DNA of 64,000 nt. It comes from Anaspis maculata. Its lineage: Eukaryota > Arthropoda > Insecta > Coleoptera > Scraptiidae. The translations under genes and the position numbers were made by a program. Positions 3,101 to 46,009 of the stretch are shown in pieces. Each line of letters opens with the position of its first letter. Position 1 is the first letter of the stretch. The stretch is taken from positions 11,483,262 through 11,547,261 of the forward strand of contig OX421962.1 in assembly GCA_949128115.1 (NCBI GenBank). Direction: 5' to 3'. Below the pieces are notes generated by a model. The model saw nothing but the letters and a program-made list of their open reading frames with translations, had not been told where the DNA came from and did no database searches.

Positions 3101-3784
3101 TGTAAACATGAAAAAAACGAGTTATTTCGCAACGAGACAGAATTATTATGTAAATATTTTGCTTGAAGAGCATGGACACGCAATTTTCGATATCATTATT
3201 CTAGTGTGAAGAAGCAAATTATTGATAATTTATTATAGCCCCGAATTTTCAGGAAAAATCTGCGCCAATGAGTGAAGGTCATGAGTCAGTGAACCTAGAT
3301 CAATTTGAAATGAAATGTCGGCTTTACCCAAAATTGATATGAAACCTCCTATATCGTAACTTGTTGATACGTAACGTTCCGTAACGTAAGTTAAAATCAA
3401 TAAACTTATCTTTAACAACAATAAATTCTTGCCTTATTCTCTCTAGATGGCATAGGATCGTTGTGACGTGTCGACTCACACGTCTGGTGTCGGGTTAATA
3501 CAGTTAAGCACCTTGTAGTTGAGGAGGTTCAACAAAGAACTTGATCAGATTTTTTCCACGGTGAAAATCAATGCGTTTATTTTTCTGATGAATTATTTAT
3601 TCACTTATCAAACAAGGTCTTCCATGAGTAGGTTCTATTATTGTGTGAGCAGGTCAAAGCCGCAATTAATTTTGATGGAATTCTACATAATAGGTGGAAT
3701 CACAGACGTGGGTATGTATTTTATCACGTGTTTGCTATCCAGTATTACAGTTCGAACAATGCCCAATCGATGGCCAGTTCCATC
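3101..3784 (+). other. 5' flank of Gr gene 1, related to the Gr4 flank
   Basis: The part from about 3500 to 3784 is clearly homologous to the sequence before Gr gene 4 (about 53175-53460). Shared words include TTGATCAG, CACGGTGAAAA and TATTTTATCACGTGTTTGC. The homology runs to the shared ATG, so it probably contains the promoter and 5' UTR duplicated with the gene. Nothing recognisable lies between 3101 and 3500. Confidence 0.5.
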
Positions 3785-4956
3785 ATGAGCTACAAACTAT
3801 CAAGACGTGACATTCGATTCATGACGATACCTTACTCAATCACGAATTTCCTAGGGCTGACCCCGCATTACCATTTTCAAACATCCACAGTAAGATCCCC
3901 TTTGAAACACAAGATCCAAGTAGTTGTCCAAGTGGTAGCAATTCTCACCGTCGTCAACTATGTAGTGATATTGAGAAGATTGAAAATGCTCGTGTCGGAC
4001 TATGTAGACGCCTTTTTGCTTGTTTTGGACGGTTCATTTTATCAACTAGTGATATTTACAACGTTATTGAGCTCATTGCGTCACAAAAACTGGAAGAAGC
4101 TTAACAAGAACTTTCAGTTAATGAACGGCATGATGGTGACAGCCAGGGAGAATTTGGGCTTATGGAGAAACCCTACGGTCCACTTTGCCTTGCTTAACGT
4201 TGTTATGATCATGGAGTTTGCCCTTCGCATATTCGCTGTAGCGAGTGCTCATCTGGAACATCACCAAACAATCGCTGCCTGGTTTCAAATTATAATTGAT
4301 ACTTACGCTACAATCATTTGTGCATATAGTGAGGCTCTGATGCAGTTTGTGATGTGCAGCATTATACTGGCACTGAAACACAAATACTGTGGTGTTGCGT
4401 TGCTCCTGAAAAAGATGGACATTGGAAATGCTGTCGCTCTAGCAGCTGTGTTGGAAGAGACTGTCAGGGCTTTCAACGTGTTCTTTGGTTGGACAATTTT
4501 TATCATGTTAGTCCATAATTGTACGGATATGTTGACTTGTTTACATTTCTTCATTTTCAACTTCCAAAAAAACGAGACTACCTTGACGGCAACGACGTTT
4601 TTATTGGATGCTTGCACATCCACGGTTGGTTCATGGTTTTATTATGATTCAAGTCAAAAGTTTGATGCACTATTTGGCTAATTCATGATTTTGGTTGTCT
4701 ACAGGTCCTGACAGTTTGCATGGTTCTGGCTTGCGATTCGCTCACAAAAGAAATGAAGGTCATAGCGAAACTGGGTCAGAAGCTGGGAAGAAACAGAGTA
4801 GGAATTGGAGAGCGGAAGAGTCTGGTGGATTGTGGTGAAAAAGTCAAGATTTCTGCCGCTCGATTGTTGGCGGTCGATCGCGAAACGCTATTGCAGCTCT
4901 TCTCAGTGACGACCACGTATGTGATTGTGATGTTACAATTGAAACCGAGTTATTGA
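3785..4956 (+). CDS. Gustatory receptor gene 1 (two exons)
   Basis: Predicted seven-transmembrane insect gustatory receptor (7tm_7 family), a ligand-gated cation channel subunit in taste neurons. Exon 1 is 3785-4624 (280 codons), the intron 4625-4704 (80 bp, phase 0), exon 2 4705-4956 (83 codons plus stop); total 363 aa, normal for the family. The start is the ATG of MSYKLSRRDIR, shared with Gr4 and Gr5 and preceded by a conserved ATC; an upstream in-frame ATG is not conserved. Hydrophobic segments are spread along exon 1, and exon 2 ends with TTYVIVMLQL, the Gr signature TY-x5-Q. The donor is GTTGGT rather than GTAAGT or GTAGGT, the one odd feature. A polyadenylation-type AATAAA lies near 4988. 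The ligand cannot be inferred. Confidence 0.85.
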
Positions 4957-5750
4957 TTGCATGCATTGTGATTAAGCTGCACTCAAATAAATAAAGTAAT
5001 CATCAAATCAGTTAGTGCTATTCGGAATCTAGATGTTCATGGGCTTTTGAATGAAGCAATAATTGGAGCATTGCAAATTGGAGAAAATTTCAAATTCAAA
5101 TAGGAATTGGAACCGTGGCGTGGGTCTGGTATGCTGTACGATGTCACAGTACATTAGAAAATACTCATCATCCTATACAGCGATGCGTATGGTAGCAGTT
5201 CTAGGAAGGGTGACTGGCACGCTTCTTTGCCGTCGATGAGTGACTTTGTGACGGAAATGGGCGAAGAAAAAACAACATTGCACCTACACCTGGTCTTATC
5301 AGACTGACCCGCGATTTTTTCACGCTGACCGTGAATTTCAATTCCAATCAAGTTTAGGCGGTGGCATTTTTCCAGGGCGAATAGGTTAGCCTTCACGAAC
5401 TTTTTTCCCACGTGTCAATACTCATTCATCATAAGAGTATAAGTTGACATCATGGTATATTATTGTGCTTCAATAGTGTATGAAGTTGCGATTATCGCGA
5501 ACAAAATGTTTTGGTATGCGTATATACGTTTGATATAAGCAAAGCAGAAAATCATTTTCACGACCACCCAATAAAAAATAAACACTTGAAACACACTAAA
5601 TACAAACATCAGTGAAAAAATTCTTGGGTTAGCGTCCAGAGACACTTATAGTTCTATTCTATAAAAAATAACATTCCATAAACGCTTTGTTTTGTCTTTG
5701 TCTCCTTTTATAGGTAGCAGGTAATAATAGGTAGATGTGAATTACACAAA
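4957..5750 (+). other. 3' flank of Gr gene 1 with repeated Gr-downstream blocks
   Basis: No gene. A block with TACGATGTCACAGTA near 5137-5155 recurs after Gr4 near 54856. A block near 5483-5540 (ATGTTTTGGTATGCG, ATACGTTTGATATAAGC) recurs near 42856-42920, 55047-55105 and 55667-55725. These look like pieces of the ancestral Gr duplication unit. The sequence ends at the truncated LTR of Ty3 copy A. Confidence 0.5.
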
Positions 5751-7169: not shown

Positions 7170-7188
7170 TATAGTTTTTCTATAACAG

Positions 7189-7426
7189 TGTTACGACCCC
7201 GTCATGAATAAGATCAGTTTTGCTTACTTAGCACCTGCTGTTTATATATACGACTTCATGCAGTTAGCACGTATCACAATTCTCTGTATCATGAACGAGT
7301 GCACGTCGCACGCATAAATTGTCGATCCGTTATTACGTTCTAAAACTTGTACGAATTAAATTATTTTCACAGTTTAATAAAATTAATATTTTTTAAAAAG
7401 GCTTTTTCAAAAACAAACACGTAAAA
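7189..7426 (+). repeat. 5' LTR of the errantivirus-like element
   Basis: Starts TGTTACGACCCC and ends in an A-run (GTAAAA), one base before the primer-binding site. It matches the 3' LTR apart from one C/T difference (AAGATCAG here, AAGATTAG there). The ACAG duplication fixes its borders. Confidence 0.9.
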
Positions 7427-7427
7427 A

Positions 7428-7445
7428 TGGCGCAGTCGGTAGGAT
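7428..7445 (+). promoter_or_regulatory. Primer-binding site for tRNA-Ser
   Basis: TGGCGCAGTCGGTAGGAT is complementary to the 3' end of insect tRNA-Ser (acceptor ...CCGACTGCG plus CCA). Several Drosophila errantiviruses of the 17.6/297 group also use tRNA-Ser. Confidence 0.85.
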
Positions 7446-7733
7446 ACTAGGCCCATTTGGCACAAATAATTTTTGAAAATTTTATACGTAAAAAAGTGTT
7501 AAGTGGTGTGCTCCAGCACTTCAGCCTAGCAGCCTACATCTGTAATCAAACCAAGGAAGCTCCAGCGGAACCTGTCCTGAAGTTCTCCGACGGCAACGAT
7601 TTCCATCAAGTAGTAAGTCTACTTATTTTTATAATCATCATTGTTTGTTTCGGGGTATTCCCCTTTCCATTTTATATCCTTTTTATCTTGTTTAGTGTAT
7701 TGATATTATATTATTTACCTGTGATAATTCGAA
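7446..7733 (+). other. Untranslated leader of the errantivirus-like element
   Basis: Sequence between the primer site and the gag ATG. A frame of 96 codons overlaps it but has no recognisable domain. A 5' splice site for env mRNA would be expected here or in early gag. Confidence 0.5.
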
Positions 7734-8699
7734 ATGGCTGGAGGTGATAACGAAATTCAACTCTCTTTGAGAGATCTTAAAGATTTAATTCCCTCATTCG
7801 ATGGCGAACAAGCCTTACTGAATGATTTTATAGAAGCATGTAATTTTGCAACGGAAAACATCGAAGAAGGACAAGAAAATGTCCTTGTTTTCCTAATTAA
7901 ATCCAAACTAACTGGAAAAGCTAAAACTTTCATATCCTCGAGGAATCTAACAACCTGGGAAGCAATAAGGCCCCTTTTAATAGGCCACTTTGGCGATTGT
8001 AGGGATACCGAAGCTCTCGTCAGAGACCTCACAAATTCTTTCCAAAAAACGACTGAAACAGCGCGAAGCTTCGTAACAAAAATAGAAAACTTATTAACAA
8101 AATTAAGGTCGAGTGTTCGACTCGACGACGAAATTGACCCATTACATAAAAACACTTTAATCGAGTCACACGAAAAGATCGGACTGAAAACTTTATTAGC
8201 CGGATTAAATGACCCCTTAGGTCAATTAATAAGAGCACAAAAACCATTATCCATTAGCGAAGCCGCCCAACTAATACTTGAGGAAGAAAATATTGCATAC
8301 CTAAGATCAACGCGCAGCAGTCAAAACAATACGAAAACATTTAAAAGCTTTCCACGACAAAATTACCATAACCAACATGTTTCACCTCAAGCAGGACCGA
8401 GCAATTATGCTCATAATCCAAATCCACGACCAGACGCGAAATTCTGCAATTACTGCAAAAAACCTGGTCATTTAATAGTAAATTGCTTCAGAAGAATAAA
8501 TAATTCGAGTCACAATAATGCAAATCCTCAAAATAGAAATTTTTCAGGTCAAAGTAATTTTCAAAATCGACCAAACAATAATTTCTCAAACAATCCCGCT
8601 CCTCGCGTAAATTATTTAAAAAACGAAGATGCGGAGCTGGATTCCCCGGACGTGCAGTCTCCTATAACCCAGACGCACGTGAGCGAGTCCGAAATGTAA
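7734..8699 (+). CDS. gag: Gag polyprotein, errantivirus-like
   Basis: Intact 321-codon frame; the ATG lies in AAATGGCT after a stop-rich leader. The first ~190 residues resemble a Ty3/Gypsy capsid domain: helical, with conserved segments around NDFIEACNFATENI and FKSFPRQNYHN beginning the basic tail. A CCHC zinc knuckle (CNYCKKPGHLIVNC, about residues 237-250) is followed by an Asn-rich tail. It would form the particle and bind genomic RNA. Its end overlaps the open pol frame by about 118 nt in the -1 frame, with a slippery heptamer at 8615. It looks undamaged, so this copy could still make particles or be packaged. Confidence 0.88.
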   Translation: MAGGDNEIQLSLRDLKDLIPSFDGEQALLNDFIEACNFATENIEEGQENVLVFLIKSKLTGKAKTFISSRNLTTWEAIRPLLIGHFGDCRDTEALVRDLTNSFQKTTETARSFVTKIENLLTKLRSSVRLDDEIDPLHKNTLIESHEKIGLKTLLAGLNDPLGQLIRAQKPLSISEAAQLILEEENIAYLRSTRSSQNNTKTFKSFPRQNYHNQHVSPQAGPSNYAHNPNPRPDAKFCNYCKKPGHLIVNCFRRINNSSHNNANPQNRNFSGQSNFQNRPNNNFSNNPAPRVNYLKNEDAELDSPDVQSPITQTHVSESEM

Positions 8700-11600
8700 T
8701 TTTAAATGCAAAGTCCCATGATAGCCAACACAAAATGTTTTATATTCTAGACACAAAAAATAATTTTAAACTTCTTTTAGACAGTGGTGCCTCTATCAGT
8801 TTGATTCACCCAAATATTATTTCACCCGAAAGTAAAATCCAAAGCAAAGATATTCATATAACCGGGATTGAAAATATTCCCGTACTTTCCAGTCATGTTT
8901 ACGAATACCAAGTCGGTAAATTCAATTCGCACACAATGCATGTTGCACCTATCGACTTTGGATTATTCGACGGAATTTTGGGTATGGATTTTATTTTAAA
9001 TTTCAATTGTGTTATCGATTTTCCTAAAAGAAAACTATTTTGTTCAATTCAAGACTATCCTGAAATTCAATTATTTTCCTATGCAAGGAACGGTGATACT
9101 TCTCTCACTACTTTAAATCATTGTGAATCCATTAATAAAAATAATACAAGAAACCCGGTACGTAAACCGCGTATAATCAACGAAGAAAATCGACAATTTC
9201 ATACTCCCTCTGTGGATCTTAGAATTGCTAAAAAAGCAATAGAACCAAAGTGTTCAATCCAAGTCGATACTAATTCATTTAAAAAATCAAATACTTCCTT
9301 CGGGAATTCTTCGAGCTCCGCCGTGAGTCTCTCTAATAATAATAATCCTATAAATGGATCTTCTAATAAAAATACTTCTCTCAAAGTAGAGAATCAAAGA
9401 ATAAATATTTCCGAGGCAAATAATAGCCTTAGGGTCGATTCAGAAAAGAATCATTTAAATACTTCCTTCGGGAATTCTTCGAGCTCCGCCGTGAGTTTCT
9501 CTAATAATAATAATCCTATAAATGGATCTTCTAATAAAAATACTTCTCTCAAAGTAGAGAATCAAAGAATAAATATTTCCGAGGCAAATAATAGCCTTAG
9601 GGTCGATTCAGATAAGAATCATTTAAATACTCCCTTCGGGAATTCTTCGAGCTCCGCCGTGAGTCTCTCTAATAATAATAATCCTATAAATGGATCTTCT
9701 AATAAAAATACTTCTCTCAAAGTAGAGAATCAAAGAATAAATATTTCCGAGGCAAATAATAGCCTTAGGGTCGATTCAGATAAGAATCATTTAAATACTT
9801 CCTTCGGGAATTCTTCGAGCTCCGCCGTGAGTCTCTCTAATAATAATAATCCAATAAATGGATTTTCTAATCAATTTTCAATCGAATTCATAAGAGGTGA
9901 CATTTTAGATGCACCCAATAACATTCCAATTGGGCACGCAGTGTCTCAAGATTTTAAAATGGGCCAAGGCTTAGCAAGAAAAATTGCAATAAAATATCCA
10001 CACAATACCGACGAGCTGCTAGCTCAGCAAAAAATAGTAGGACAAGTTGCTTATTCCTTTTTCTCGAGCGTAAATGAAACGCGAGAAATTTTTCACCTTA
10101 TCACGAAGGAACGCTTTCAAGATAAGCCCACGTACAATTCTATCAACACAGCATTAATGAACTTGCGGGTTATATGCGAAGAAAATCAAATCGCTGAATT
10201 AGCACTGCCAAAGCTCGGATGCGGTCTTGATAACTTGAACTGGAAGCACGTTCTTTCTATGATAAAAGAAATTTTTAATAATAGTCGGATTAAAATTTAT
10301 ATCTATGAGTTCGAAGAACCAAATACTACTTTGAAGAAAATTTTTCATATATCGCCTAGAACGATCGAGGTAGTTCAACTACCAGTAAAAATAAATTCAT
10401 TTTCAAATAATAATGCTGATTCAACCTTTATATGTCCTGAACTAGAGATCAATGGAGTAAAGATTCCTAATTCCATCGTAAAGATAAATGATAACCAAAT
10501 TATTACTACAATGTTGAACTCAAGCAATGAAACCAAGAAAGTTGAACTTCCTGAAATAATTCTTGAACCTTTCGAAACCTTTAACGTGAATAACTACAAC
10601 GTCACTACTAATCACTCAAATAATATCGATCGAGAACAAAATATTTTAAACCAATTAAGGCTCGATCATCCTCATTTAGAAGAAAAAGAGATCATTCACA
10701 AAGCTGGGAAATTAAATAAAAATGCTGATGCACTTTCGCGTATCAGAATAAATCCAATCACAGCAAATCCATCTTCATCTCCAGATGAAGAAGACGAGTC
10801 AATAATCAATCGTAACGAGACACCAGACTTAATTGATTTCAACGCAAATCCAGACTACGAATTCGAAATCGAATATGACAGATTTATTAACGAACAACCT
10901 TCAATAAATTTTGATTTAATAAAAGAGACAAACGACTATGTGACACTTGCTTACCACAAAAATATAATAGCATTCATTCCCAATAATGAAAATGAGGATA
11001 CACCCCATATTGCAACCTATGTCGCAGATACATGTACTACAGAAAGAAATTTGAATCTAACTGAAACATTAACTATCAAAAACAGCTTAAAGGTCACTAA
11101 TCGAAAATACTATTTCATCAAATTGCCCGTAGATAATTTATCAAGACTTTCTCAAAAAGATTTATTCAGACTTCTCTACGAGATCAAAGAAAATTTAGAA
11201 CCTAAAGAATATCATTTAAACAAGGTCAATCACCTACCATTGAAAAGAATTTTGAGTCATTTATTCAACGCTGATACTTTCAAATTCCATATTTGCCATG
11301 ATATAATCAAATTGCAAAAAGACCTAACGCCTGAAGAAAAGAACGAAATAATGTCGAAATGGCATTCCTCAAAGAATAATTTACATAAAGGTATCAATGA
11401 AACATTTCGAAGAATACGTGAACAACATTTATGGCCCAATATGAAAACAGATATAGAAGAATTTGTAAAACGGTGTCAGACTTGTAATCAATCGAAGATT
11501 AATAGGCAAAACACAGATTTTCCCCTCGTAATTACAAAAACACCAGAACGACCATTTCAACACATAAACATGGACACACTAGACGTACATCCCCAGTTAC

Positions 11601-12409
11601 ATCTTCTGACAATTGTTGATAACTTTTCAAAATATGCACAGGCTTATCCAATTCCTAACAAACAAGCAAGAAGCGTTACTGATAAATTATTATTGTACTT
11701 CCAACACTACCCTGTACCACAACGAATTCATGTAGATGCCGGAAGCGAATTTATGAACCAATCGTTCAAAAATCTAATCGAATTGTACGACATTAGACTA
11801 ACTGTCAGTCCCACTGATCATCCCCAATCTAATGGGCAAGTGGAACGTTTTCACGCCACATTGATGGATTCTATTAGAAGTTTCCACATCGATTATCCTC
11901 ATAAACCTGTAGTTGACGCACTACCTTTCGCTATAAAAACATATAACCTTAGCAAGTCAGCTTCAACCAAATTCACCCCTCAGGAAATTGTTTTTGGACA
12001 TATTGATCCATCTAGAGATAAGATTTTTACCAATGAAGCAGAACTTCAAGATGATTACCAGAGACTCATGAGAAATTACGCACAATATGTTAACAAAAAA
12101 GTCATTTCCAATATCGATAGTTCCAAACAAAAATCAAAGGAACGTTTTGACAAACATGTAAAAGAAAATAGACCTCAGTACAAACTTGGTCAATCAGTGT
12201 TTTTAAGAAAACCATCAAGACAATCCAAATTGTCCCCCACATATCTTGGTCCCTACAAAATAACCAGACGCTTACCTCCGAATTGCGTAGAGCTACTAAC
12301 TTCCAATAATAAATATATGACTGTCAACTTTGACCGGATAAAACCGTCAAATATAGAATTAGACGAAGACCAAGACCCAAATACCTCAGACAAGGTATTT
12401 AACAAATAA
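8582..12409 (+). CDS. pol: Pol polyprotein lacking RT, with protease, macrodomain and integrase
   Basis: Open from 8582; the first ATG (8735) gives 1224 residues, numbered from it. In order: aspartic protease (LLLDSGAS, Asp16; ILGMDF at 81-86); a 168-bp tandem repeat coding an Asn/Ser-rich linker (186 to ~379); a macrodomain (381-526); then near residue 652 an abrupt jump from the segment that normally precedes RT to the end of RNase H (KLNKNADALSR). The whole RT palm, with no Y-x-D-D anywhere, is missing in frame. Integrase follows: an HHCC zinc region (His877 to Cys914/Cys917), then Asp947, Asp1001 and Glu1037, a perfect DD35E, and a C-terminal domain. So cleavage and integration could be encoded, but not cDNA synthesis. 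There is no stop or frameshift over 3.8 kb. Confidence 0.9.
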   Translation, partial: FLKQSRSSRKLFKKRRCGAGFPGRAVSYNPDARERVRNVILNAKSHDSQHKMFYILDTKNNFKLLLDSGASISLIHPNIISPESKIQSKDIHITGIENIPVLSSHVYEYQVGKFNSHTMHVAPIDFGLFDGILGMDFILNFNCVIDFPKRKLFCSIQDYPEIQLFSYARNGDTSLTTLNHCESINKNNTRNPVRKPRIINEENRQFHTPSVDLRIAKKAIEPKCSIQVDTNSFKKSNTSFGNSSSSAVSLSNNNNPINGSSNKNTSLKVENQRINISEANNSLRVDSEKNHLNTSFGNSSSSAVSFSNNNNPINGSSNKNTSLKVENQRINISEANNSLRVDSDKNHLNTPFGNSSSSAVSLSNNNNPINGSSNKNTSLKVENQRINISEANNSLRVDSDKNHLNTSFGNSSSSAVSLSNNNNPINGFSNQFSIEFIRGDILDAPNNIPIGHAVSQDFKMGQGLARKIAIKYPHNTDELLAQQKIVGQVAYSFFSSVNETREIFHLITKERFQDKPTYNSINTALMNLRVICEENQIAELALPKLGCGLDNLNWKHVLSMIKEIFNNSRIKIYIYEFEEPNTTLKKIFHISPRTIEVVQLPVKINSFSNNNADSTFICPELEINGVKIPNSIVKINDNQIITTMLNSSNETKKVELPEIILEPFETFNVNNYNVTTNHSNNIDREQNILNQLRLDHPHLEEKEIIHKAGKLNKNADALSRIRINPITANPSSSPDEEDESIINRNETPDLIDFNANPDYEFEIEYDRFINEQPSINFDLIKETNDYVTLAYHKNIIAFIPNNENEDTPHIATYVADTCTTERNLNLTETLTIKNSLKVTNRKYYFIKLPVDNLSRLSQKDLFRLLYEIKENLEPKEYHLNKVNHLPLKRILSHLFNADTFKFHICHDIIKLQKDLTPEEKNEIMSKWHSSKNNLHKGINETFRRIREQHLWPNMKTDIEEFVKRCQTCNQSKINRQNTDFPLVITKTPERPFQHINMDTLDVHPQLHLLTIVDNFSKYAQAYPIPNKQARSVTDKLLLYFQHYPVPQRIHVDAGSEFMNQSFKNLIELYDIRLTVSPTDHPQSNGQVERFHATLMDSIRSFHIDYPHKPVVDALPFAIKTYNLSKSASTKFTPQEIVFGHIDPSRDKIFTNEAELQDDYQRLMRNYAQYVNKKVISNIDSSKQKSKERFDKHVKENRPQYKLGQSVFLRKPSRQSKLSPTYLGPYKITRRLPPNCVELLTSNNKYMTVNFDRIKPSNIELDEDQDPNTSDKVFNK
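8615..8621 (+). promoter_or_regulatory. Candidate -1 ribosomal frameshift site (T TTA AAA)
   Basis: The heptamer TTTAAAA sits with TTA and AAA as gag codons, exactly the X XXY YYZ register. A -1 slip enters the pol frame, which is open from 8582. The position, 26 codons before the gag stop, suits a Gag-Pol fusion. No downstream pseudoknot was modelled. Confidence 0.6.
9290..9871 (+). repeat. 168-bp in-frame tandem repeat inside pol
   Basis: Units begin at 9290, 9458, 9626 and 9794 (three full, one partial). Each codes 56 residues rich in Asn and Ser (SFGNSSSSAVS, NNNNPINGSS, SLKVENQRINIS). The copies are almost identical, so the array is young. Because 168 is divisible by three, copy-number change keeps pol open. 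It separates protease from macrodomain and probably acts as a flexible spacer. Confidence 0.92.
9875..10312 (+). other. TARG1/OARD1-like macrodomain within pol
   Basis: About 146 residues (381-526 of pol) read as a whole macrodomain. A beta-strand leads into GDIL (Asp389, adenine pocket), then an H-A-V-S-x-D and MGQGLA loop, a QQK segment, HLITK with Lys458, KPTY, and LGCGLD with Asp499 before a final helix and strand. In human TARG1 the matching Lys (K84) and Asp (D125) are the catalytic pair that removes ADP-ribose from Asp/Glu, and both are kept here. Predicted role: binding or hydrolysing ADP-ribose marks, or ADP-ribosylated nucleic acid, in particle or host cell. Substrate and purpose are inference. 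Probably captured from a cellular OARD1-like gene. Confidence 0.85.
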
Positions 12410-12913
12410 TCCCTGCTGTTTTGGGACCTTTAAGAATAAAGCAGATGTAAATCCAAATGCGTGTCGTAAAAGGCGACTAAATAGGACTTAATACAAGAAT
12501 TTTTGAAAAACTCTGACGACGTTTGGCAGACGTCAACCATTATGTTCAAAGAACACCTTTTTCCCCATAATTATGATTATATACGCATAATTCTATTCCC
12601 TGTAAAACTGCTGAGTTTATTAACCGCCAAACCCCCGCCTCACGGAAAACATTTTAATTTTTTATTGCGGTCAAATTCAGATTTGCCCTGATATACAATT
12701 TTGGAAGTCACCAAATTGTCCCTGTCATCTGAATAACATCTTAGGATTCAGACTGTAAAATCCTTCGGCTTTACCGAAAATTCAATTATAGTACGAATTT
12801 AGTAGTGTTAGCGATAATTCCTAGGTTGGTTTATCGTATCAGCTAATTTCATAATTAAGAACTTTATTGTTTTATCTAGTCATCTGTGAACAAATAATTG
12901 TTACAGATCAATC
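12410..12913 (+). other. pol-env spacer with candidate env splice acceptor
   Basis: No coding domain. The last bases before the env ATG read TTGTTACAG/ATCAATC, a good 3' splice site (AG at 12905-12906), as expected for a spliced env mRNA. Confidence 0.5.
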
Positions 12914-13204
12914 ATGGACAAGACTCCATCTAAAATCTTTATTTTCCTATTCCTTATTAATTTTTCTTATTCCAATATCCAAATCAAAGACCTAAACAAT
13001 ACCATAGGACTATTTTACGAAAAAGAGAGAGAAATAAAAATAACTTCAGATATTTGGAAACTAGTAGTGTATAAAGACATTAATCACTTACAAGAAACGT
13101 ACGAACATAATTTGCAAATTTTAAATACCCTAACAACTGTACTTTTGAAAGATGAACACGATGAAAATGTAAGATTTCGAACTTTTTCCCCGAGGGGTTA
13201 ACCA

Positions 13205-13430
13205 CTGTGGAGGTTTTCTGTTCCTTGCCTTGGAGATCCGTGGAGGTTTGGTGGAGATCCGTGGGGATCCGTGGGGATCCGTGGAGATCCGTGGAGGTTT
13301 GGTGGAGATCCGTGGGGATCCGTGGAGATCCGTGGAGGTTTGGTGGAGATCCGTGGGGATCCGTGGGGATCCGTGGAGATCCGTGGAAGTTTTATGGAGA
13401 TCCGTGGAGATTTCGTGGAGATTTCTTCTC
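13205..13430 (+). repeat. 12-bp minisatellite, left array
   Basis: About 18 units of GGAGATCCGTGG with GGGGATCCGTGG and GGAGGTTTGGTGG variants. The long frames read through it on both strands (repeated HGSPRIST or RGDPWGSV) are by-products of the period being divisible by three. Confidence 0.95.
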
Positions 13431-14519
13431 AATTTGGACACTTTTCTGATATTTGAAGTCATATGATGTCTTTGGATCAATGTTTTAATATCTAAGCTTG
13501 ATTTGTTGGCCAGCTCTAGTTGAAAATAGTAAGGAAATACTTCGTATTGATAGATCGGTAAATTTTTGATATCGTTAAAGCAGAATTCTGTATTATCCCA
13601 TTCAAGACGACCTGTAATGGATGTCACCCCTGTTTTCCCTTTCTTGTTTTGCGAATCGATGCGAATGAGAAAATCAGGGTGAGTGCTCGAGTGAAAGCCA
13701 GTTTGACGAAAGCGAAATAGCACTTTTCGGGAATAGATCCTGGAGTAAACTGCACGCCGGCGAAAGTTTAACCCAGGAGGTTATACCAAGTGAAAAGTAG
13801 GTGACCGTGTCATAAAGGGGACCCGAAGCCGTACATTTCACAGTTACAATTTTATCATTATTCCCTTCCTCATGCAATAATTTTGAGTCGATCTAGGTAC
13901 GGAAGAATGCGATTTACTAACGTGAACTATTCAATTTTCGCACTTGAACAATGTCCACTTTCCTTGCTGGTCGCCATGGTAACCACACTCTCTTCTCGCT
14001 GTTCTTTTCTGACAATTGACGTTTCAAGGAGCTATGCGAAAAATGTGAAGATGCATGTGCTTCACATAGCGCAGTATGTTATTGGCATTAATAAAAACAG
14101 CAGTATGATTTGAAAGGCAAATAGAGAAATTACACGCGTCAACTACCCACTCAGCATAGCATGTCGTGTTTCATAAATGAGATGATCTCAATCATGTCAC
14201 AAAATAACATCACAATGAACGTTACTTCCACATCTCTGTGATGTTCATCCGCGATGTTATACGATGTAATGTCTGAGAGATGTTTCGAAATAAACTTAAA
14301 TTGAACATCACACATGAGACATCTACCGGACATCACATTGTTACTGCTTTCAACTTGCCGAAGTGTAACATCTCACTGACGTCAATGAGATGTAGTCACT
14401 GAGAGATTTTTCAAATTTCGCGGGCTGTCATCGTTAAGCTCTGTGTGTCGAAAAATATTTAATAAATAGTTTTGTCCTCTATTCCATGTGTGTGATGCCA
14501 GAACAGCCTTATGTCTTCA

Positions 14520-14905
14520 TGTTTAGTGTGAGGCCCTGCGGGCCCTCTTATGTCTTCAAGTGTCGTTTGGAACAACTTTTGTGTCTTCTTGTGCTTGTGA
14601 CTTTCGGAACTAGTGTGCCCCATTTGTGTCTCCTTGTGTTCTTCGAAAGCCTACTGGGCCTTCTTGCATTTTGTCGTGACTTTCGCACCTTTAGTGAACC
14701 CTTGTGTCTGCTTTTGCGTTATTCGGAACCCCAAAATGGGCCCCTTTTTGTTTTATTGTGCTTTCGAATACTTTGATGACTCCCGTTCATGTCTTACCTA
14801 TTGTAATGTCCGGGACCCCAACGGAGTCCCTTGTGCCTTGCTGTAACGTTTCGAGCCCCAGCGAGGCTTTTTGGGCTCGGTGTATCGTTTGGAGTCCTAA
14901 TGAAA
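14520..14905 (+). repeat. Dispersed ~40-bp minisatellite (GAGCCC / TTGTGTCTTC type)
   Basis: Diverged tandem units with the pattern GAGCCC...GGGCC...TTGTGTCTTC...TCGTTTGG. The same repeat lies at 23455-23777, 46010-46323, 51334-51546 and 52247-53070. Confidence 0.7.
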
Positions 14906-14944
14906 TATTCCGAGAAACATCCCTGAACATCAAGTGCGCTGTTT

Positions 14945-15130
14945 AAATATACTGTAGTAGACAAGTTGGTAGTTTAGACGAATCGGCAGCAGTGCCTCTA
15001 ACCATCACCTGTGGGGATCCAGGTTCGAATCCTGCGGAGGACGCCATAGAAGAAGAACTTTTCTTAGGGAAAAAACGTGCTGTATAGATTGTAAAAATTA
15101 GTAAAAATAGGTGCGGAACCTCCTGTGACA
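14945..15130 (+). mobile_element. Possible tRNA-derived SINE fragment
   Basis: Contains a good pol III B box (GGTTCGAATCC, near 15022) ahead of GCGGAGGACGCC and a short A-rich body. The upstream A box is weak and the acceptor stem does not pair, so it is not a tRNA gene. Confidence 0.4.
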
Positions 15131-15419
15131 TAAAACTATGTTGAAAAGTGGTGAAAAAATAATTTTTATTTGAAAATACACATTCAAAATGCGACGTATC
15201 ATGTACGTCAAAAAGTGATATCTACGAGATGTGGAATAGCGATGTAGATAGTATGTCACATTTGGACATCTTTGAGATATCTCATTCATGTTCTAATTAC
15301 CCGGACATAAGAAGTAACAGAGATGTCCACTTAACATCGCAGAGACTTTTTTCGCAGTTGTGCTTGAACATCTAAGTGATGTCACAGAGATGTTTTCTTG
15401 CTGAGTGGGTACCTATTTT

Positions 15420-16035
15420 TCGCAACTTTTTTTCCCGTTTTTCGTGTTTTATTCCTTCTTTTTAAACGTACTTTTTATGCTTTTGCGGGATATACTTTCC
15501 ATGCGTTGATATCCTTTTTTGGGCTCTTCCGTTTTTTCCTTGCACTCCATTCCTTCCTTACACGCGTCGACTGCCTTATCTTGCGACTTTCTTCCCGTTT
15601 CGTGTGATTTATTCTTACTTGTCAATGTTTTCTTTCACGATTGTTAGCGATTTTTAGCCGTTTCTTGTTTTATGACGCGTTCTTTTTAGTCTCTTCCCGC
15701 CCAACAGTCCAATTTCACCCCTTGGTCCCGTTGGTGTCTTTTGGTAGCGTATTGCCACAAAACCATTGTCTTTCACTGATTTTCTTACAATTACTTGCGA
15801 TTTTTCACCCCGTTCTTAAAGTTTTATGATACGTTTTTCCCAGCTTCTCTTCGCCCAACACTCCTATTCTGCTCCATGGTCCCGTTTGTGTCTTTTGGTA
15901 GCATATTGTCACAAAAACAATGTCTTCCTGGTTTTCTCCCGATTTCTTGCCATTTTCTGCCCTGTTTCGTTTTACGACGCGTTATTCCGCCCGGCGCAAA
16001 AATACACTGCGTAGTTTCCTTCCTTTCATTTTTTT
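15420..16035 (+). repeat. ~150-bp tandem repeat, about four units
   Basis: Units recur near 15422, 15648, 15808 and 15948, each with GCGATTTTT..CCC..GTTTTATGA(C/T)(G/A)CGT. The middle ones share TCGCCCAACA and GTGTCTTTTGGTAGC. T-rich and noncoding. Confidence 0.6.
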
Positions 16036-16264
16036 TTCGAAAATCTGTATATCTTCCGCAAAATTTCTTTTAAAAACCTTCTGGGCCACCGTTTGTAGTC
16101 TATTCCTACTTTTGGACAGATCGAAATCGGGATCGGGATCCCCTTTATGACACGGTCACAAGACAATTGGTCACTTCATCAGAAGACAATAATTGATTTT
16201 GATCCCCACTTGAGATAACCCTATGCAGTATGTGTGTACGTATGTATGTGAACACTGCGCATGC

Positions 16265-16445
16265 GCTAGACTGTGGAGATCCATGGAAGTTTTGTGGAGA
16301 TCCGTGGAGGTCTTGGGGAGATCCGTGGGGATCCGTGGGGATCCGTGGAGATCTGTGGGGATCCGTGGAGATCCGTGGGGATCCGTGGGGATCCGTGGGG
16401 ATCCGTGGAGATATGTGGAGGTATGGTGGAGATATTGGAGGTTTC
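16265..16445 (+). repeat. 12-bp minisatellite, right array
   Basis: Same GGAGATCCGTGG / GGGGATCCGTGG units as the left array and in the same orientation, about 14 units, immediately before env resumes. Confidence 0.95.
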
Positions 16446-18417
16446 ATTCTATTTGGAGGTTTTTTGTACCAGATTTTTGGTCGTGGTCGACCCCTCGTTT
16501 TTCCCTTACGATAAAACCCCATCTTGATATTCTAAAAGCGATTTCAAATAAAATCGATAATATGTTAACAGAAATTAAATTCGAAACAATCCGAGTAAGA
16601 CTTGCAAACGGTGTTGGAACCGTATGGAAATTTATAACAGGAAATCTAGATGCCTCCGACGGAGAATATTTCAGCAAATGTATAGACAAATTAGAAAGAG
16701 ACGATTCAGAAATTCAAAACTTAATTAAAGACCAAATTAAAGTCACAACAAGTACCATTCGAAATTTTAACGAAACGATTAAAAAATTACAAATTGACGA
16801 ACAAACATTCAACGAAGATATGAAAGTAATAGAAAACGAAATTAAAACCCTTTTTGGGAGTCAAAAATATTTTGAGCATCAATTAAAATTGATGAATAAT
16901 TGTGAACAACTTCTAGAATCATTCACATTAATTTCAGAAGAACTTACTGATATAGTCAATAGTTTAACCTTTGCGAAATTAAAAATAATCCACCCATCGA
17001 TAATTAAACCTAGAAATTTACTCAGCGAATTGATAGACATCAATAGACATCTAACGCGAAATAACTTACCATTCAAACCCACTTTGGAAAATCTTCCCCA
17101 GTTATTAAATCTTTTTAAACTTCAAGCATTTCAGACAAAAAACAGGTTAATATTTGTAATAATAATACCTTTAATAAATCAGGATACCTTCGACCTTTAC
17201 CATCTCTACTCTGTACCAACCAAAGATCCTTCTACAAACCTTTTCCATACTATCATCCCCGAATCAAAGATGATAGCATTATCAAAAGATAAGAGAACTT
17301 ACATCAAGATCCATGACCTCGACACTTGCCAAGAAATGGACGACAGAACCGCCATGTGTCAAGATTTAATTCCTCTTGACTCGACCCAAGGACCATGTGA
17401 GGTCATCCTCATCACGACACTCCAAAACTCCGACAAATGCAAGCCACTAATCATGAATGTAATCAACCATAACATTCAGTACATCGGCAAGAACCAATGG
17501 TTACTAGTCCTACCATCAAAGTTGGCAATTACCTACACCTGCCCTAATCAAGGTACAACCACCAAACTTCTGGAGGGCAACAAACTCATCACGTTACAAA
17601 AACGGTGTAATGCGTATACTGGCATTTATCAACTATATGCTAAAGAAGAACAAACTTCCAACTATACAGAAGAGAACTTCATCCCTCAAATTCCATTCGA
17701 ATGCTGCGAGGAACAAACATCAAAAGAAGAGTTCCATTTAAAACCACTTAAAATCAACCAGTTCAACTTGGACGACTTAAATGTCGCCGCTCACAAACTT
17801 GGCGAGCTTGAAGAAGAACTCAAAACGTTAAATCAAGAGCCCTTCGCAACAAAGTACCTCAGCGCATCCACCATCTGGACCCTGACCATCTTTGTTATAA
17901 TAATTGTAACAGTCATCTGCTGTAAATGTGGCTGTTGCCGCCACTTCATTGGCTACATGAAAAGTTCACCTTCTAACAACCCCAGACCTGACGACAGGGG
18001 TTGCTGTGCAAAAATCTATAACTTTACCAATATCAATCCAAAACCACACCGTAGAACATCTATTCACCAGTGGAACATCGAGTTGCAACCGACACTCGAA
18101 CTACAAACTGAAGAGACGCCTCTGGAAGCAGCAGCCGTCTCAAGAAATACGAGGCAGCAAAGAAAAGCCTTGTGAACAAACTTTGCAGTGCGCGAAGTGT
18201 TTAAAAGCAGAGCTTATACGAAGTGAAAAGTGCTCGTGACCCTAAAAGACACTTTCTTTTAATTTGTAATCTTTTAATTTTAAGTCTTTAGTACTTAACG
18301 ATTTTGTTATTTCAGTTTTTAGCTTACTTACCTTTTATGTCAATAATTTTATATTTTTAGAATTTTAAAAAATTTACCTCTATTTTTATTTTCAGTTAAT
18401 TTTATAAAATTCTATCC

Positions 18418-18429
18418 AAAAGGGGGAGG
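18418..18429 (+). promoter_or_regulatory. Polypurine tract
   Basis: AAAAGGGGGAGG directly abuts the 3' LTR, the expected plus-strand primer. Confidence 0.85.
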
Positions 18430-18667
18430 TGTTACGACCCCGTCATGAATAAGATTAGTTTTGCTTACTTAGCACCTGCTGTTTATATATACGACTTCAT
18501 GCAGTTAGCACGTATCACAATTCTCTGTATCATGAACGAGTGCACGTCGCACGCATAAATTGTCGATCCGTTATTACGTTCTAAAACTTGTACGAATTAA
18601 ATTATTTTCACAGTTTAATAAAATTAATATTTTTTAAAAAGGCTTTTTCAAAAACAAACACGTAAAA
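18430..18667 (+). repeat. 3' LTR of the errantivirus-like element
   Basis: Same length as the 5' LTR with one substitution; followed by the ACAG duplication and then by Ty3 copy A sequence. Confidence 0.9.
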
Positions 18668-18693
18668 ACAGTGTTATTAGACTTTTTGCTATT

Positions 18694-19043
18694 TTTTTTT
18701 TATTTTTTTTGAATGTTTTACGACGCATCAACTACGAGGTTATTAGCGTCGACGGGACATTCAGTGGGTTTTTGGTACACGTTTTAATTATACTTGAATT
18801 GCCTACTGTTAACTATGTGAGGCCTCAGTACTCTGATAGCACTCAACTCTGTAGTCAGAAATCCATTTTTTCTGTAACCGCTGTAGTCAGACAGGTGCAG
18901 ATATGGCATAGTAAGGTCGGAACAATTTTTGGAACAATCGGACAACACAAAATATCCATGGACGAGGCGGGATTCGAACCCGCGCGGTAGATCACGACTG
19001 GCTTGGCGCGGCAACACCAAAACCACTCGGCCACCGCCGCTCC
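18694..19043 (-). mobile_element. tRNA-derived SINE, full length
   Basis: On the minus strand it begins with a tRNA-Ser-like head: A box TGGCCGAGTGG (19023-19033) and B box GGTTCGAATCC (18970-18980). A ~230-bp body follows, then an A-rich tail (the T-run 18694-18710). Both sides carry CTTTTTGCTATT (18682-18693, 19044-19055). Copy C near 50835-50850 has this word once, giving the empty site. The extra stem length and tail rule out a real tRNA gene. Confidence 0.88.
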
Positions 19044-19055
19044 CTTTTTGCTATT

Positions 19056-20820
19056 GTTAAGTGAATTTATTGAATTATCAAGGGGATTTAAAGTTGCTGA
19101 GTTTTGATCATTTTCAGTTGTATTTAAGTCAGCAAATCTAACATGTTTAGGAAGGTAATGAATTCTACAATTGTTTTTATTGGATAAACTTGATTCTCTA
19201 GGTCTGGGATATTTTCTGTTTCGTACATAATTTCCTTTTCTTTCTACTTCAATTTTATATCTACGATCACCTAGCCTGCTGATGATTATTCCTGGTTGCC
19301 AGTTTGGATTTGGTTTTAACTGTACCCAAACTTTTTGATTATTTGCCAATGGTTTCAATTGTCTGACTTCGTTTCTTTGATTATAATAATTCGTTGCATA
19401 ATTTTCTTTCTTCTTCAGATGTTTCATGTATTTCTTTGTACTAATCATGTGCGTCCAAAATTTATTTACGTCAAGAGGTAACAAAGGATTTCTGGTGCAC
19501 CTCGACATTAGTACTTCGGATGGAGTTGTGTTTAGGAAAATAGGAGTGTTTCTCCATTGTTACAGTGCCATATCTAGGTCTTTGTTGTCTTCTAGGACTT
19601 TCTTGAAAATATTTTCCACGTTTTGTACCTGTCGCTCGGCCATGCCGTTGGACTGGCTATGATATGGTAAGGTGATTGAATGTTTGAAACCCCATTCAGA
19701 GCTGAAATTCTTGAAATTTATGGCTATATACTGAGGACCACCGTCACTCACCAGAATGTATGAGACGCCGAACCTTACAAAAATGCTTTTCATTATTTTG
19801 ATAATTTTATCACTTGTTGCATTTTCGGTGAGTTTCTCCACTTCTACGAATTTAGAATAGTAGTCTACTAGGATTAGGTGATGTTCCCCAATCAGTTCGA
19901 AAATTTCGGTACCTACTTTGAACCAAGGGATCGCAGGTACGTCATGGGTACGCAACGGTTCATTTCTTCGAGATGGGTTGTATTTTTGGCAAATCGGACA
20001 CAATTCTATCAATTGTCTCAAGTCGTTTCGGATGGTGGGCCAGAATACACTGTCCTCGCTCATTTTCACACTTTTGTTATAACCGGAGTGGCTGTAATGT
20101 ATTTTACTCAGGATTCCTTTTCCCAATGACCTTGGAATGACGCATGCTTGCCTTTTATAAATAATACCGTTATTCATTGTTAGTTCGCTCTTGTACTTCG
20201 TATAAATTTCAATTTTTCCGTTTACTTCATTGTTATTTGGCCAGCCCCTGGTAACAATTTGAGGAAGAGTCTCCAATTCTTCATCTTTTTCAGTTTCAAT
20301 TTTTATTTTTTCGAGATATTCATCTGTAATATTTAAACCTGGAATTATTACGCATATTTGCTCGTTTTCATCTATTGACATATTTTCTTCGTAATTTGAG
20401 TCCGTTTCAGGCAAATAGGCTCCCGACAATGCGTCTGCAATAATCAGTTTGTTGCCTCTTCTGTAATTTAAAGTGAATTGGTATTTTTGTAATTGTAGCA
20501 GCAAACGTTGAAGTCTGGGCGGACATTTATCGATTGGTTTTTTAATTATGGCCAACAGTGGTTTATGGTCACTTTCCACTATGACTTGTCTTCCAAAAAC
20601 ATAATCGTGAAATTTTCGCAACCCGTATACAACTGCAAACATTCTTTTTTCTATCTGGGAATATAATTTCTGTGTTTCAGTAAACTATTTTGATGAATAG
20701 CAGACTGATTTGTTTTCTTGTAGTGGGCATGCACCTACGCCATTTAGACCTGCATCTACTGACACCGTGATATTTCTCTTGGGATTAGAAAACTGTAAAA
20801 CAGGACTTACTGAGTTAATT
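19056..20820 (-). pseudogene. Copy A pol remnant: RNase H and integrase
   Basis: From the right: RNase H (SDHKPLLAIIKKPIDKCPP, then the ADALS end), integrase zinc region (CPICQKYN), the catalytic core with Asp in LILVDYYSKF, Asp in VSDGGPQY and Glu in GMAERQVQ, and the C-terminal KVWVQLKP segment. The frame 20642-19560 is open for 360 codons and the C-terminal part follows in another frame. RT is absent because the copy stops near 20822. Confidence 0.85.
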
Positions 20821-21992
20821 TTTTATATATAAAAATTATATATAAATAATTTACTGAGGAACTCGTCGTCTTGTTTCGTCAAGCCTCATATTAACTCACG
20901 AATCCTGAGCGCTCCTCGCGGATTAGCCTCCTCAACAAATGCCTCCATCCTGTAACCTTCGCCTTGCGGGATCCTCAAACAGACGACTTCGCACTTCGTC
21001 TTCTGATAGCACTCCACCAATGTATTGCGATAGCTTATATGAGGGCGTCCATATAAAGATTTTATTTGGATTATTGAGTCATCAAACAATAATGAACATT
21101 TTCCACGTTAGCGGGTCAAGGTGTAGAAATACTTTAATTGAATTTTATCGAGTGAAATAAAGAACGTAGGTACATATATATTTTATTGCGTGTTTGTATT
21201 CCAATAATGCAATCACAATAAATGATTGATATACATAATGAACATTTACTATAATTGTGGGTGCTTGTTAGCTACAACAGGCATGTTATTGTTATGTCCT
21301 AATCAGAACAGCTATGTACTCATGATCTATCATTTGTCATGAACTCATGAAGTTATATAAATAGTACCTAACATGCGAGTATCAATTTGTTCTACTTGGT
21401 AAGATGAGTAGTAGGTATTCACATGTAGGTATTTTTTTCTTGTAGGTACACATTGGATGACGATAGGTCATATATTATATTATCGACAATGGAAACACTT
21501 GATATTATTTGTCGCTCTTGTGTTCGATATTCTGAGTAATTTTGAAGTAGATAACCATGCCTATTCTGTATCTCGTACCGAGTTCGTTAGGTGCATGCTA
21601 TCTTTGTCTGTAGCTCTGAAGCCCCCATACCTCTTCCTCTCTGCCTATCTACGTTAACAAATCGTTACGAGGATACAAAATAGCCATCAATCTCTTTCTA
21701 TGAGCTTGGCTAGTCCTAGAAGTGAACCTCTATTCCATGCTGTTGTAAAAACTGAGAAGTAAGATCAATCAATGTCAGCTCACAATAAATTAGAAAAACA
21801 ACGCAAGCGTCAAGTTCATCTGTTTCTAATTTATGTGCCTGCCAGTGTACTGTGAATTCAGTCCTCCAGTTACGTAGTTAGAGAGACGACTAATAGCGCG
21901 TGCTACAGCATTTTAACTGACAGCTCTACGTCAAAACGTGAAGGACTCTCTTGCTGTTGATATTACAACCAACCCAATCGACCACTTTCATC

Positions 21993-23162
21993 ATGAGTTA
22001 CGAAGTATCAAGAAGTGACATCCGTTCCATGGCAATACCGTACTCAGCCACCAATTTCCTAGGATTCACTCCGCATTACCATTTTCAAACATCTACAATA
22101 AGACACCCTTTGAAACACAAAATACGGGTAGTTGTTCAAGAGATGGTACTTCTCACCGTCATCATCGACTTGGTGATGAGAAGGACGAAACTGTACGCTG
22201 CGGACTACGTGGACATCTTTTTGGTCGTCTTTAACAGTGTATGTTATCAACTAGTGATACTGACCATAGTACTCAGTTCTTTACGTCATCGATATTGGGA
22301 GAAGCTTAACGAGAACTTTCAGTTGATGGACGCCATGTTGGGGAATACCGGCAGAAAATTGAGCTTGTGGAAAAATCCTGCGGCTCATTCCATTTTGCTT
22401 AACGTGATCATGATCGTTGTATTCTCCATTCACATTTTGGCATTAGCTTTTGATGATAATGTGGAGCCTTTCCAGACCGTCTCTGCCTGGATTCACATTC
22501 TAATCGATTTTTCCGCTGCATTTTATTGTATGTACAGTTTGGTTTTGATGCAATTCGTGATATGTAGCATTTTGCTGACACTGAGGCACAGATACTGTGG
22601 TGTTAAATTGCTTCTGAAAAAGATGGACGTTGAAAAAGTTGTCGCTCTGGTAGATTTGTTGGAAGAAACCGTAGCGGCTTTCAATTCGTTCTTCGGTTGG
22701 ACAATTTTCTTTTTGTTTGTCCACAATTGCGCGGACATGTTGACTTGTTTACACTTCGTCATCTTTATTTTCAAAAGAAGTGGGATAACCTTCTTAGTAG
22801 CGACCTATTTCTTGGATACTATCATACCCTCGGTAAGTTGATAGTTTTATAATGGTTAACGTCAAGTTCTACACAGTTTACCGGGTGGTGTAATTAGATA
22901 TGATTCTGGTTGTTTACAGATCATGACAATTTGTATGGTTCTGGCTTGCGATTCGCTCACAAAAGAGCTGAAGGGTATTGTGAAATTGGGGAAGAAAAGG
23001 CGAAACGGAGATAGAGAGATGACGAATTTGGTGTATTGTTGTAAAAAAGTGAAGATTACTGCCGCTCGATTGCTGGTGATCGACCGCGAAACGCTTTTGA
23101 AGCTCTTCTCAGTCACGACCACGTATTTGATTGTGATATTACAGCTGAAATCAAGTTCTTAA
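21993..23162 (+). CDS. Gustatory receptor gene 2 (two exons)
   Basis: Same family as Gr gene 1. Exon 1 is 21993-22832 (280 codons), the intron 22833-22919 (87 bp, GTAAGT...TTTACAG, phase 0), exon 2 22920-23162 (80 codons plus stop); 360 aa. The start is MSYEVSRSDIR, aligned with the other copies; an upstream ATG would add 14 unconserved residues. It has several hydrophobic segments and the C-terminal TTYLIVILQL. Its closest relative is Gr gene 3: 13 amino-acid differences, 12 of them between residues 47 and 112, while exon 2 and the intron look identical. An AATAAA-like signal lies near 23189. Ligand unknown. Confidence 0.87.
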
Positions 23163-23454
23163 TTCCGCATTCTGATTTTGTTTCTATCAAATAAATGGAA
23201 AAGTGATAAACATTCAACTAATGGAGGCTATTTTTTGAAACCATTTCAAGGTTATGCTTCTGGCGTTAAAGAGCTCTTAGCTGAAAGAATCTTCCATCAA
23301 ATGGGTTCCACAAGTCTGCCAAGACTTTGATCTCTGTTCAATTAGATATAATATCTTCTATAGACTTCCCTAGCGTTTTCGAGCGCCAGCTATCTAGGAA
23401 GCGTCACAAAATTGATTGGTGACTGGACAATTCTTCGCCGGAAACTTTGGAGCT
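23163..23454 (+). other. 3' flank of Gr gene 2
   Basis: Part of the segmental duplication. It contains a GGACAATTCTTCGCCGGAAA word near 23425 that recurs near 45955 and, as tandem copies, near 53071-53165. No gene. Confidence 0.5.
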
Positions 23455-23777
23455 CTAATGAGGCCCAGTGTGAGTGTAATATTCAGAGCCCTATCCCCCC
23501 CTGAGTTTTTACGTAGCGTTCCAAGTCTTGCTGAGCCCCCTTGTCTCTACAAGTATCGTTTGGGATCTTGATGAACCTCCTTGGGTATCTTCACATTTTC
23601 TGGAGATTTGCTTCGCCCTTATGCCTTGGACGGTTCCTCAGAGCCCTATTAGACCCCCTTGTATTCATGTCGCATTTGTAGCCCTGCTGAGGTCCTTTGT
23701 ACCTTGCATTACTTTTCAAAGCTCAATAGTTAGCTCCTGTGTGTCTTCTTGTGTTGGTCGAAATCCTAGTTGCCCCC
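23455..23777 (+). repeat. ~40-bp minisatellite (GAGCCC type)
   Basis: Diverged units with GAGCCCC, CCCTTGT(C/A)T and TATCGTTTGG words. Copy B of the Ty3 family is inserted at its right end. Confidence 0.7.
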
Positions 23778-23924
23778 TGTGGGATAACCTTATACCACAC
23801 TCTGTATGTTTACCTGTTCCCTATAAAAGGAGACCCTTTGTTGTAATGAGCAGTTTAAATAAACATCTCGTAGTATACACATGTATATTTACCTGCACCG
23901 CTTTACCTAAAATACTACATAACA
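23778..23924 (+). repeat. 5' LTR of copy B
   Basis: 147 bp, TGTGGGATAACC...CTACATAACA, with a TATAAAAGG promoter-like box near 23823. A TGGCGCTGCG primer-type sequence follows directly. Matches 46324-46470. Confidence 0.85.
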
Positions 23925-24063
23925 TGGCGCTGCGAATATTCGAACTATTCAAGAACATTCAAGGAGACTGTGACGTGGAATCGCCATATAAATAAACAAT
24001 CGGAGTGCGAATGATATTGTCAAGAACATAGTGAATGTACATAGTGAAAAGTTGTAAAAAAAT

Positions 24064-25075: not shown

Positions 25076-25079
25076 ATGT

Positions 25080-29391: not shown

Positions 29392-29393
29392 TT

Positions 29394-45515: not shown

Positions 45516-46009
45516 TTCCGCATTCTAATTTTGTTTCTATCAAATAAAAGGAAAAGTGATGAGCTTTCAACTAATGAAAGGTATTTTTTCGAAACCATTC
45601 CAAGGTTATGAAGCTATGCTTCTGGCGTTCAAGAGCTCTTAGATGAAAGAATCCTCCATCAAATGGGTTCTACAAGTCTGCCAAGACTTTGGTCTCTGTT
45701 CAAATAGATATATCTTCTATGGACTTTCCTATAAGTTCTCAGGAAGCATCCACACTTAGATCTTAATCCTCACAGCTGAGAAGCTCCTCCTTAACCTAAC
45801 TTTCTCAAGAGCTAAAGAGCTCCTTCTAAGCTTCAAAGTGACCAAGTGAATTGCACGCAACGACTTGATGGTCTTCGAGCGCCAGCTATCTAGGAAGCGT
45901 CACAAAATTATTTGGTATCTAAACTTGAGAACTAACTTACTTCGACGGTGATCGGACAATTCTTCGCCGGACAATTCTTCGCCGGAAACTTTGGAGCTCT
46001 AATGAGGCC

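Follow-up and report, generated by a model that had tools for sequence, protein, structure and literature searches.

A TARG1-class macrodomain, probably acquired more than once and likely an eraser of host ADP-ribosylation, in retrotransposons of the beetle Anaspis maculata

In the genome of the scraptiid beetle Anaspis maculata (assembly GCA_949128115.1), dozens of retrovirus-like elements and one unrelated element family carry a relative of the ADP-ribosyl hydrolase TARG1 within their own proteins. The reference case is a long terminal repeat (LTR) element in a stretch of 64,000 nucleotides of contig OX421962.1 (positions 11,483,262 to 11,547,261, forward strand), hereafter the window, whose Pol protein contains the domain at window positions 9875–10312 (+ strand; Pol residues 381–526). 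The favoured reading is that the elements have repeatedly picked up an ADP-ribosyl-hydrolase module, which would likely remove ADP-ribosylation imposed by the host.

Identity and active site of the macrodomain

Judged by sequence and predicted fold, the segment is a macrodomain of the TARG1 (ALC1-like) class inside Pol, as the initial annotation had proposed. TARG1 is the nearest relative in sequence (E 2.4e-27), followed by DarG (3.6e-8), and MacroD-named sequences are absent among the 11 distinct sequences matching the domain at E up to 1. The structural overlay suggested in the same annotation agrees with this assignment: the predicted model has a macro fold, and TARG1 is its closest structural relative. 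Both residues named there as catalytic are present, Lys458 and Asp499 corresponding to Lys84 and Asp125 of TARG1, which constitute the catalytic dyad of that enzyme (PMC9411070; this and the other papers cited are used for the sections consulted).

The domains were compared in an alignment of 16 rows: 12 from LTR elements of this genome (three from the window family, A; two each from families B and C; one each from D, E, F, L069 and H), the public protein P0025, one LINE (long interspersed nuclear element), host OARD1 and human TARG1. Lys84 and Asp125 (TARG1 numbering) are within the 13 invariant columns. The macrodomain of a second public protein, P0026, which was excluded from the alignment for its very long branch, is much diverged and still has Lys and Asp at the dyad columns. 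The Gly-Asp pair of the adenine pocket varies across carriers (B has AD or AE, C has GN and P0025 has NN), and identity between families outside the catalytic pair amounts to about 31–57%.

Carriers and the position of the domain

The domain search of the source genome (758 Mb) scored the best 150 of 423 candidates, and the resulting counts are lower bounds. All 150 are significant; among them, at least 68 loci (69 rows, one locus being split) belong to the window family at 90–100% identity, with no stop counted in the match in 60 of the 68 loci listed, and at least 81 further rows show 38–43% identity. Twelve of these 81 rows were fetched: ten have an in-frame reverse transcriptase (RT) motif, L044 has a partial RT domain, and the frame of L054 is too short to tell. 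The domain of L044, used as a query, gives at least 150 matches in the same genome, while a search with the Pfam Macro model gives 104, two of which are host-like and belong to another macro class (L001, L002). Insertion of a host cDNA into this one copy, named at the outset as the observation that would count against a captured domain, is contradicted by the 68 or more family loci and by the identity of the window domain to host OARD1, which is 35% (52% between host OARD1 and human TARG1); given this low value, the element domain is not a recent host cDNA.

Read from the open frames as they stand, the macrodomain occupies three Pol slots in the frames examined: before the protease, between protease and RT, and between ribonuclease H (RNase H) and integrase. 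The window family (L020) has the order protease, macrodomain, RT and RNase H, with protease and macrodomain below the Pfam cut-offs in that frame. Family F (L044) likewise shows protease, macrodomain and RT; in its relative L069 (55%) the macrodomain lies upstream of RT and a protease was not seen. The domain stands between RNase H and integrase in B (L039, L047; protease, RT, RNase H, macrodomain, integrase), in C (L046; the same order from RT onwards, with the protease recognized by motif only) and in E (L042; macrodomain by tblastn, not by Pfam). In D (L040) the macrodomain, found by tblastn, precedes protease, RT, RNase H and integrase, and in H (L068, L070) motifs place it upstream of the protease.

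Among 72 proteins collected with the integrase region, a clear macrodomain is present in two (P0025 and P0026), in both cases between RNase H and integrase. P0035 has a weak macro match in the same slot, perhaps a decayed macrodomain, and is not counted as a carrier; in the other 69, nothing matches the macrodomain at E 10 or below. When the macrodomain, by itself or as a region of Pol, was searched against protein databases, no match emerged (160 and 20 candidates), nor did one come from scans of viral contigs with the macrodomain and with the integrase, or of genome contigs with the macrodomain.

The unrelated carrier, family G, is a LINE. Its ORF1 (open reading frame 1) of 661 amino acids contains the macrodomain (22.3 bits, cut-off 22) and, by eye, CCHC-like knuckles, and is followed by an endonuclease-RT frame (RVT_1 7.8e-38, Exo_endo_phos_2 1.2e-26). 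One motif pattern finds nine loci, of which seven are near-identical copies of the LINE, one is a decayed relative and one is the host gene. The LINE macrodomain loci are L057–L059, L062–L065 and L067 (3–2954). A single host OARD1 (L060, L066) was found by this pattern, which host copies without the motif would escape; as its matches fall in two separate places, an intron probably lies within the host domain. Two LINE copies lie no more than 21 kb from the end of contig C7, and another no more than 14 kb from the start of contig C9, which may reflect subtelomeric insertion.

Selection on the domain

Nonsynonymous changes were compared with a neutral simulation in which the same base changes are placed at random (5000 simulations). 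Over the 30 window-family copies, 20 of 43 changes are nonsynonymous where 30.6 are expected, and 2 of the 5000 simulations are as low. The deficit is present in the RT-less copies alone (16 of 32; 30 simulations as low) and in the 13 copies that continue towards RT (9 of 21; 36 simulations). Values for family B are 6 of 16 (five of six copies; 39 simulations) and for family E 4 of 12 (10 simulations). The deficit of amino-acid changes is clear in A, B and E. In the spacer beside the macrodomain, available for 24 of the 30 copies, 17 of 26 changes are nonsynonymous and 1388 simulations are as low, which is not significant.

Origin and spread

In a tree of 77 RT sequences, which contained neither named references of the genus Errantivirus (gypsy, ZAM, 17.6) nor a fish endogenous retrovirus (ERV) with a macro domain, the eight carriers are scattered, with eight changes of state. 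The window family falls into a starred group with P0002, P0003 and P0006, all without a macrodomain; RT identity is 75–77% for P0002 and P0003, and in P0003 the protease runs straight into the spacer. A single clade for all eight carrier RTs (F with its partial RT) is rejected by the approximately unbiased test (p 2e-8). Since P0002 and P0003 lack the domain and the carrier RTs do not form one clade, it was acquired or transferred repeatedly, or else lost many times. The sequences are compatible with repeated gain as well as with a gain and later exchange among elements, but not with steady inheritance unless losses were many.

The macrodomain phylogeny, which the initial annotation had proposed to set against insect OARD1 genes, is weak. 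It groups the domains of the LTR elements together (85/94, not starred) and places the LINE domain next to OARD1 of host and human. A single clade of all element domains withstands the test (p 0.237 in an earlier tree, 0.257 in the tree of the 16-row alignment), so the domain tree does not discriminate between captures and hopping. As far as origin is concerned, several independent captures from host OARD1 and a single capture followed by hopping are evenly poised. The occurrence in three Pol slots and a LINE, the scattered carrier RTs and the position of the LINE domain argue for independent captures, whereas the common group of the LTR-element domains favours hopping; the claim of separate captures is weakened in that a single clade for all element domains is not rejected.

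Proposed function and alternatives

As the slot varies while the active site is constant, the domain probably acts as a free module rather than as a structural part of Pol. The interpretation to which slightly better than an even chance is given, on the basis of sequence and predicted structure, is that this TARG1-class domain of a multi-copy Ty3/gypsy-type Pol is likely a hydrolase: the macrodomain would be enzymatically active on ADP-ribosyl groups, the element protease would free it from Pol in the LTR elements, and the freed domain would take ADP-ribose added by the host off proteins of the element or of chromatin. The erased mark could be a silencing or defence mark placed by host poly(ADP-ribose) polymerases (PARPs) or sirtuins, comparable to the mono-ADP-ribosylation of KAP1 by SIRT6, by which mammalian L1 is silenced (PMC4695847). 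TARG1 itself removes ADP-ribose attached to acidic residues and to the ends of nucleic acids (PMC7050489). A broader proposal, held more tentatively and at somewhat below an even chance, is that TARG1-type hydrolases constitute a nomadic counter-defence cassette of retrotransposons, repeatedly gained by or passed among Ty3/gypsy elements and separately acquired by a LINE ORF1; it would imply that ADP-ribosylation is a general layer of anti-retrotransposon defence in this animal lineage.

Several observations weigh against a recurrently acquired, selected hydrolase. In family C, 42 of 63 changes are nonsynonymous and 1037 of 5000 simulations are as low, which is no significant deficit. The single group of the LTR-element macrodomains (85/94, not starred) allows one capture with later transfers. 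Catalysis by the chikungunya macrodomain is dispensable for replication in mosquito cells, with binding kept (PMC12632316), so binding is perhaps more important than catalysis. In a rival reading, ADP-ribose binding would tether the integration complex or particle to poly(ADP-ribosyl)ated chromatin or DNA breaks, and hydrolysis would be secondary. Macrodomains can be readers, binding appears to be the selected trait in chikungunya (PMC12632316), and the domain stands between RNase H and integrase in B, C, E and P0025; such a tether is nevertheless rather unlikely, because the catalytic Lys and Asp are invariant in the 16 rows and the adenine-pocket pair is not, and because the domain lies away from the integrase in the window family (protease/RT) and in D and H (before the protease).

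Still more doubtful is a role in cleaning nucleic acids, in which the domain would clear ADP-ribose from the termini of the element's RNA or cDNA ahead of reverse transcription or integration: ADP-ribosylated retroelement cDNA was not found in the consulted sections of the literature, and DarG lacks the Lys/Asp dyad that the window domain has (PMC9411070). Hardly any probability is assigned to functionless cargo, that is, a host OARD1 cDNA swept into the elements as a passenger. Retroelements capture host cDNA, and the element domain is uninterrupted where the host OARD1 match lies in two separated pieces; yet the dyad is kept at an identity to host OARD1 of only 35%, amino-acid changes are fewer than under neutrality, and the domain occurs in several families and slots.

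Structure of the window element

The LTR element spans 7185–18671 and comprises gag, pol and env together with a primer-binding-site-like stretch and a polypurine tract. It is flanked by the 4-bp target-site duplication ACAG, read directly at 7185–7188 and 18668–18671, and its 238-bp LTRs, located by LTR comparison (7189–7426 and 18430–18667, +), differ at 1 of 238 positions. The primer-binding-site-like stretch TGGCGCAGTCGG... (7428–7445, +) adjoins the 5' LTR, and the polypurine tract AAGGGGGAGG (18420–18429, +), likewise identified by sequence, precedes the 3' LTR. A Gag-like frame of 321 amino acids with a CCHC-like zinc knuckle (7734–8699, +) matches Retrotrans_gag with E 0.0025 and zf-CCHC with E 0.093, neither of which reaches the Pfam cut-off.

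Pol (8735–12409, +) is a single open frame of 1224 codons with the order protease, repeat linker, macrodomain, spacer, RNase H tail and integrase. The top Pfam model of the aspartic protease region (LLDSGAS ... GILGMDFI; 8762–9037, +) is gag-asp_proteas (E 0.00046), below the cut-off in the window copy, and the protease domain exceeds the cut-off in families B, D and F. The Ser/Asn-rich linker (9289–9874, +) consists, by repeat comparison, of a 168-bp unit repeated in frame about 3.5 times, with a copy number that differs among family members; FGN motifs per frame range from 0 to 4 over 30 loci, mostly 2 or 3, and number 4 in the window copy. The macrodomain is followed by a spacer (10313–10690, +), which matches P0002, P0003 and others, and by the junction of an in-frame deletion (10688–10693, +), where ..LEEKE is joined directly to IIHKAGKLNKNADALS.. 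with removal of RT and most of RNase H. The integrase (11330–11824, +) has an H2C2 zinc finger and an rve core (Integrase_H2C2 7.3e-16, rve 9.5e-14), and its best-scoring named relatives are beetle and ant sequences.

The start of env, an ATG with an open frame (12914–13182, +) assigned by its position, is interrupted by a nested DNA-transposon-like insertion of 3.3 kb (13191–16497) with the 8-bp duplication TTTTTCCC on both sides and imperfect terminal inverted repeats CGAGGGGT. Tandem arrays of the GGAGATCCGTG type are located close to both ends of this insertion (13231–13422 and 16273–16440). The remainder of env (16506–18175, +) belongs to the baculovirus-F/Gypsy type (Baculo_F 6.9e-40; Gypsy 27.6 bits, cut-off 27.5).

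The window element is an RT-less derivative of an env-bearing (errantivirus-like) Ty3/gypsy family. The description of its Pol as errantivirus-like holds as far as the domain resides in a gag-pol-env LTR element, but not for the complement of Pol domains: no RT was found in the window Pol by Pfam search, no Y[VILM]DD motif is present at the window locus (L011), and RNase H is represented by its tail only. The same junction is common to 13 of the 30 window-family loci inspected (the integrase 3' of it was inspected in the window copy). Another 13 continue into sequence leading to RT, nine of them with the RT motif in frame; three carry two other junctions (L025; L032 and L035), one of which retains more of RNase H, and L013 is not assignable to a junction type. 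Three distinct in-frame deletions in this family have eliminated RT together with some or most of RNase H, with the macrodomain retained (L009–L029 in part, L025, L032, L035). A genome-wide search with the junction pattern gives 11 exact matches, all in macrodomain-bearing loci, and two more of the 13 loci are off by one base. Frames in other copies reach a comparable length, up to 1214 amino acids; in the family copy L020, RT is above the cut-off, RNase H reaches the end of the locus, and the protease is below the cut-off. As its junction recurs at 13 family loci, the window copy is a member of a deletion lineage that has multiplied, presumably using the RT of fuller copies.

Other features of the window

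Just beyond the 3' LTR, frames at 19560–20642 and 18855–19508 (both −) resemble, on visual inspection, a Pol fragment of another retroelement, with the tail of RNase H and an integrase. A membrane-protein-like gene family has five copies in the window (3517–4992, 21971–23202, 44324–45647, 53196–54758 and 58478–59734), 69–75% identical apart from one near-identical pair; presumably the family resembles insect chemoreceptors, with no Pfam support in the one copy tested. A segmental duplication links 20846–24621 with 43197–47199 (90–96% identity), and the 1897-bp pair 25079–26975 and 29393–31289, 100% identical, is an LTR pair or a recent duplication.

Significance and comparison with known systems

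That unrelated retrotransposons carry an intact eraser of the TARG1 type, whose dyad is kept while the rest has diverged and the slot moves, is the pattern expected under an arms race over ADP-ribosylation. It makes testable the question whether animals ADP-ribosylate retrotransposon proteins, RNA, cDNA or chromatin, and with what effect. For annotation it is a warning: in genomes of this kind, many 'macro domain' matches belong to Pol or ORF1 of retrotransposons and not to host genes.

Compared with TARG1 (OARD1, C6orf130; ALC1-like class), which is a cellular single-domain enzyme, the domain described here is fused into Pol or LINE ORF1 and occurs many times in the genome. The macrodomain of the antitoxin DarG, 23–24% identical, is bacterial, acts on ADP-ribosylated DNA and has no Lys/Asp dyad (PMC9411070). 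Viral macrodomains have been described from RNA virus families, with alphaviruses, coronaviruses, rubella virus and hepatitis E virus as examples (PMC12632316); they are likewise virus-borne within a polyprotein and are thought to counter host ADP-ribosylation. The window element shares LTRs, the 4-bp duplication, the gag-pol-env order and the baculovirus-F/Gypsy env with the Gypsy/errantivirus group, and differs from it in the linker and macrodomain between protease and RT, the loss of RT and most of RNase H, and the broken env.

The initial annotation knew of no described example of such a capture. For Ty3/gypsy Pol or LINE ORF1 with a macrodomain, none is described in the literature searched, at the level of titles and summaries and with subscription journals mostly outside its scope, and the insect-ERV literature examined makes no mention of macro, ADP-ribose or PARP. 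In the wider sense the statement needs to be qualified, since some fish epsilon-like ERVs are reported to have additional ORFs for macro domain proteins (review PMC4977317, citing Basta 2009, in the sections consulted). The likeness lies in a retro-element with a macrodomain; as compared by description, the fish elements are vertebrate retroviruses with separate ORFs, whereas those of A. maculata are Ty3/gypsy Pol fusions and a LINE ORF1. The general idea of a retro-element macrodomain has precedent, and its spread over families, slots and element classes is the surprising part.
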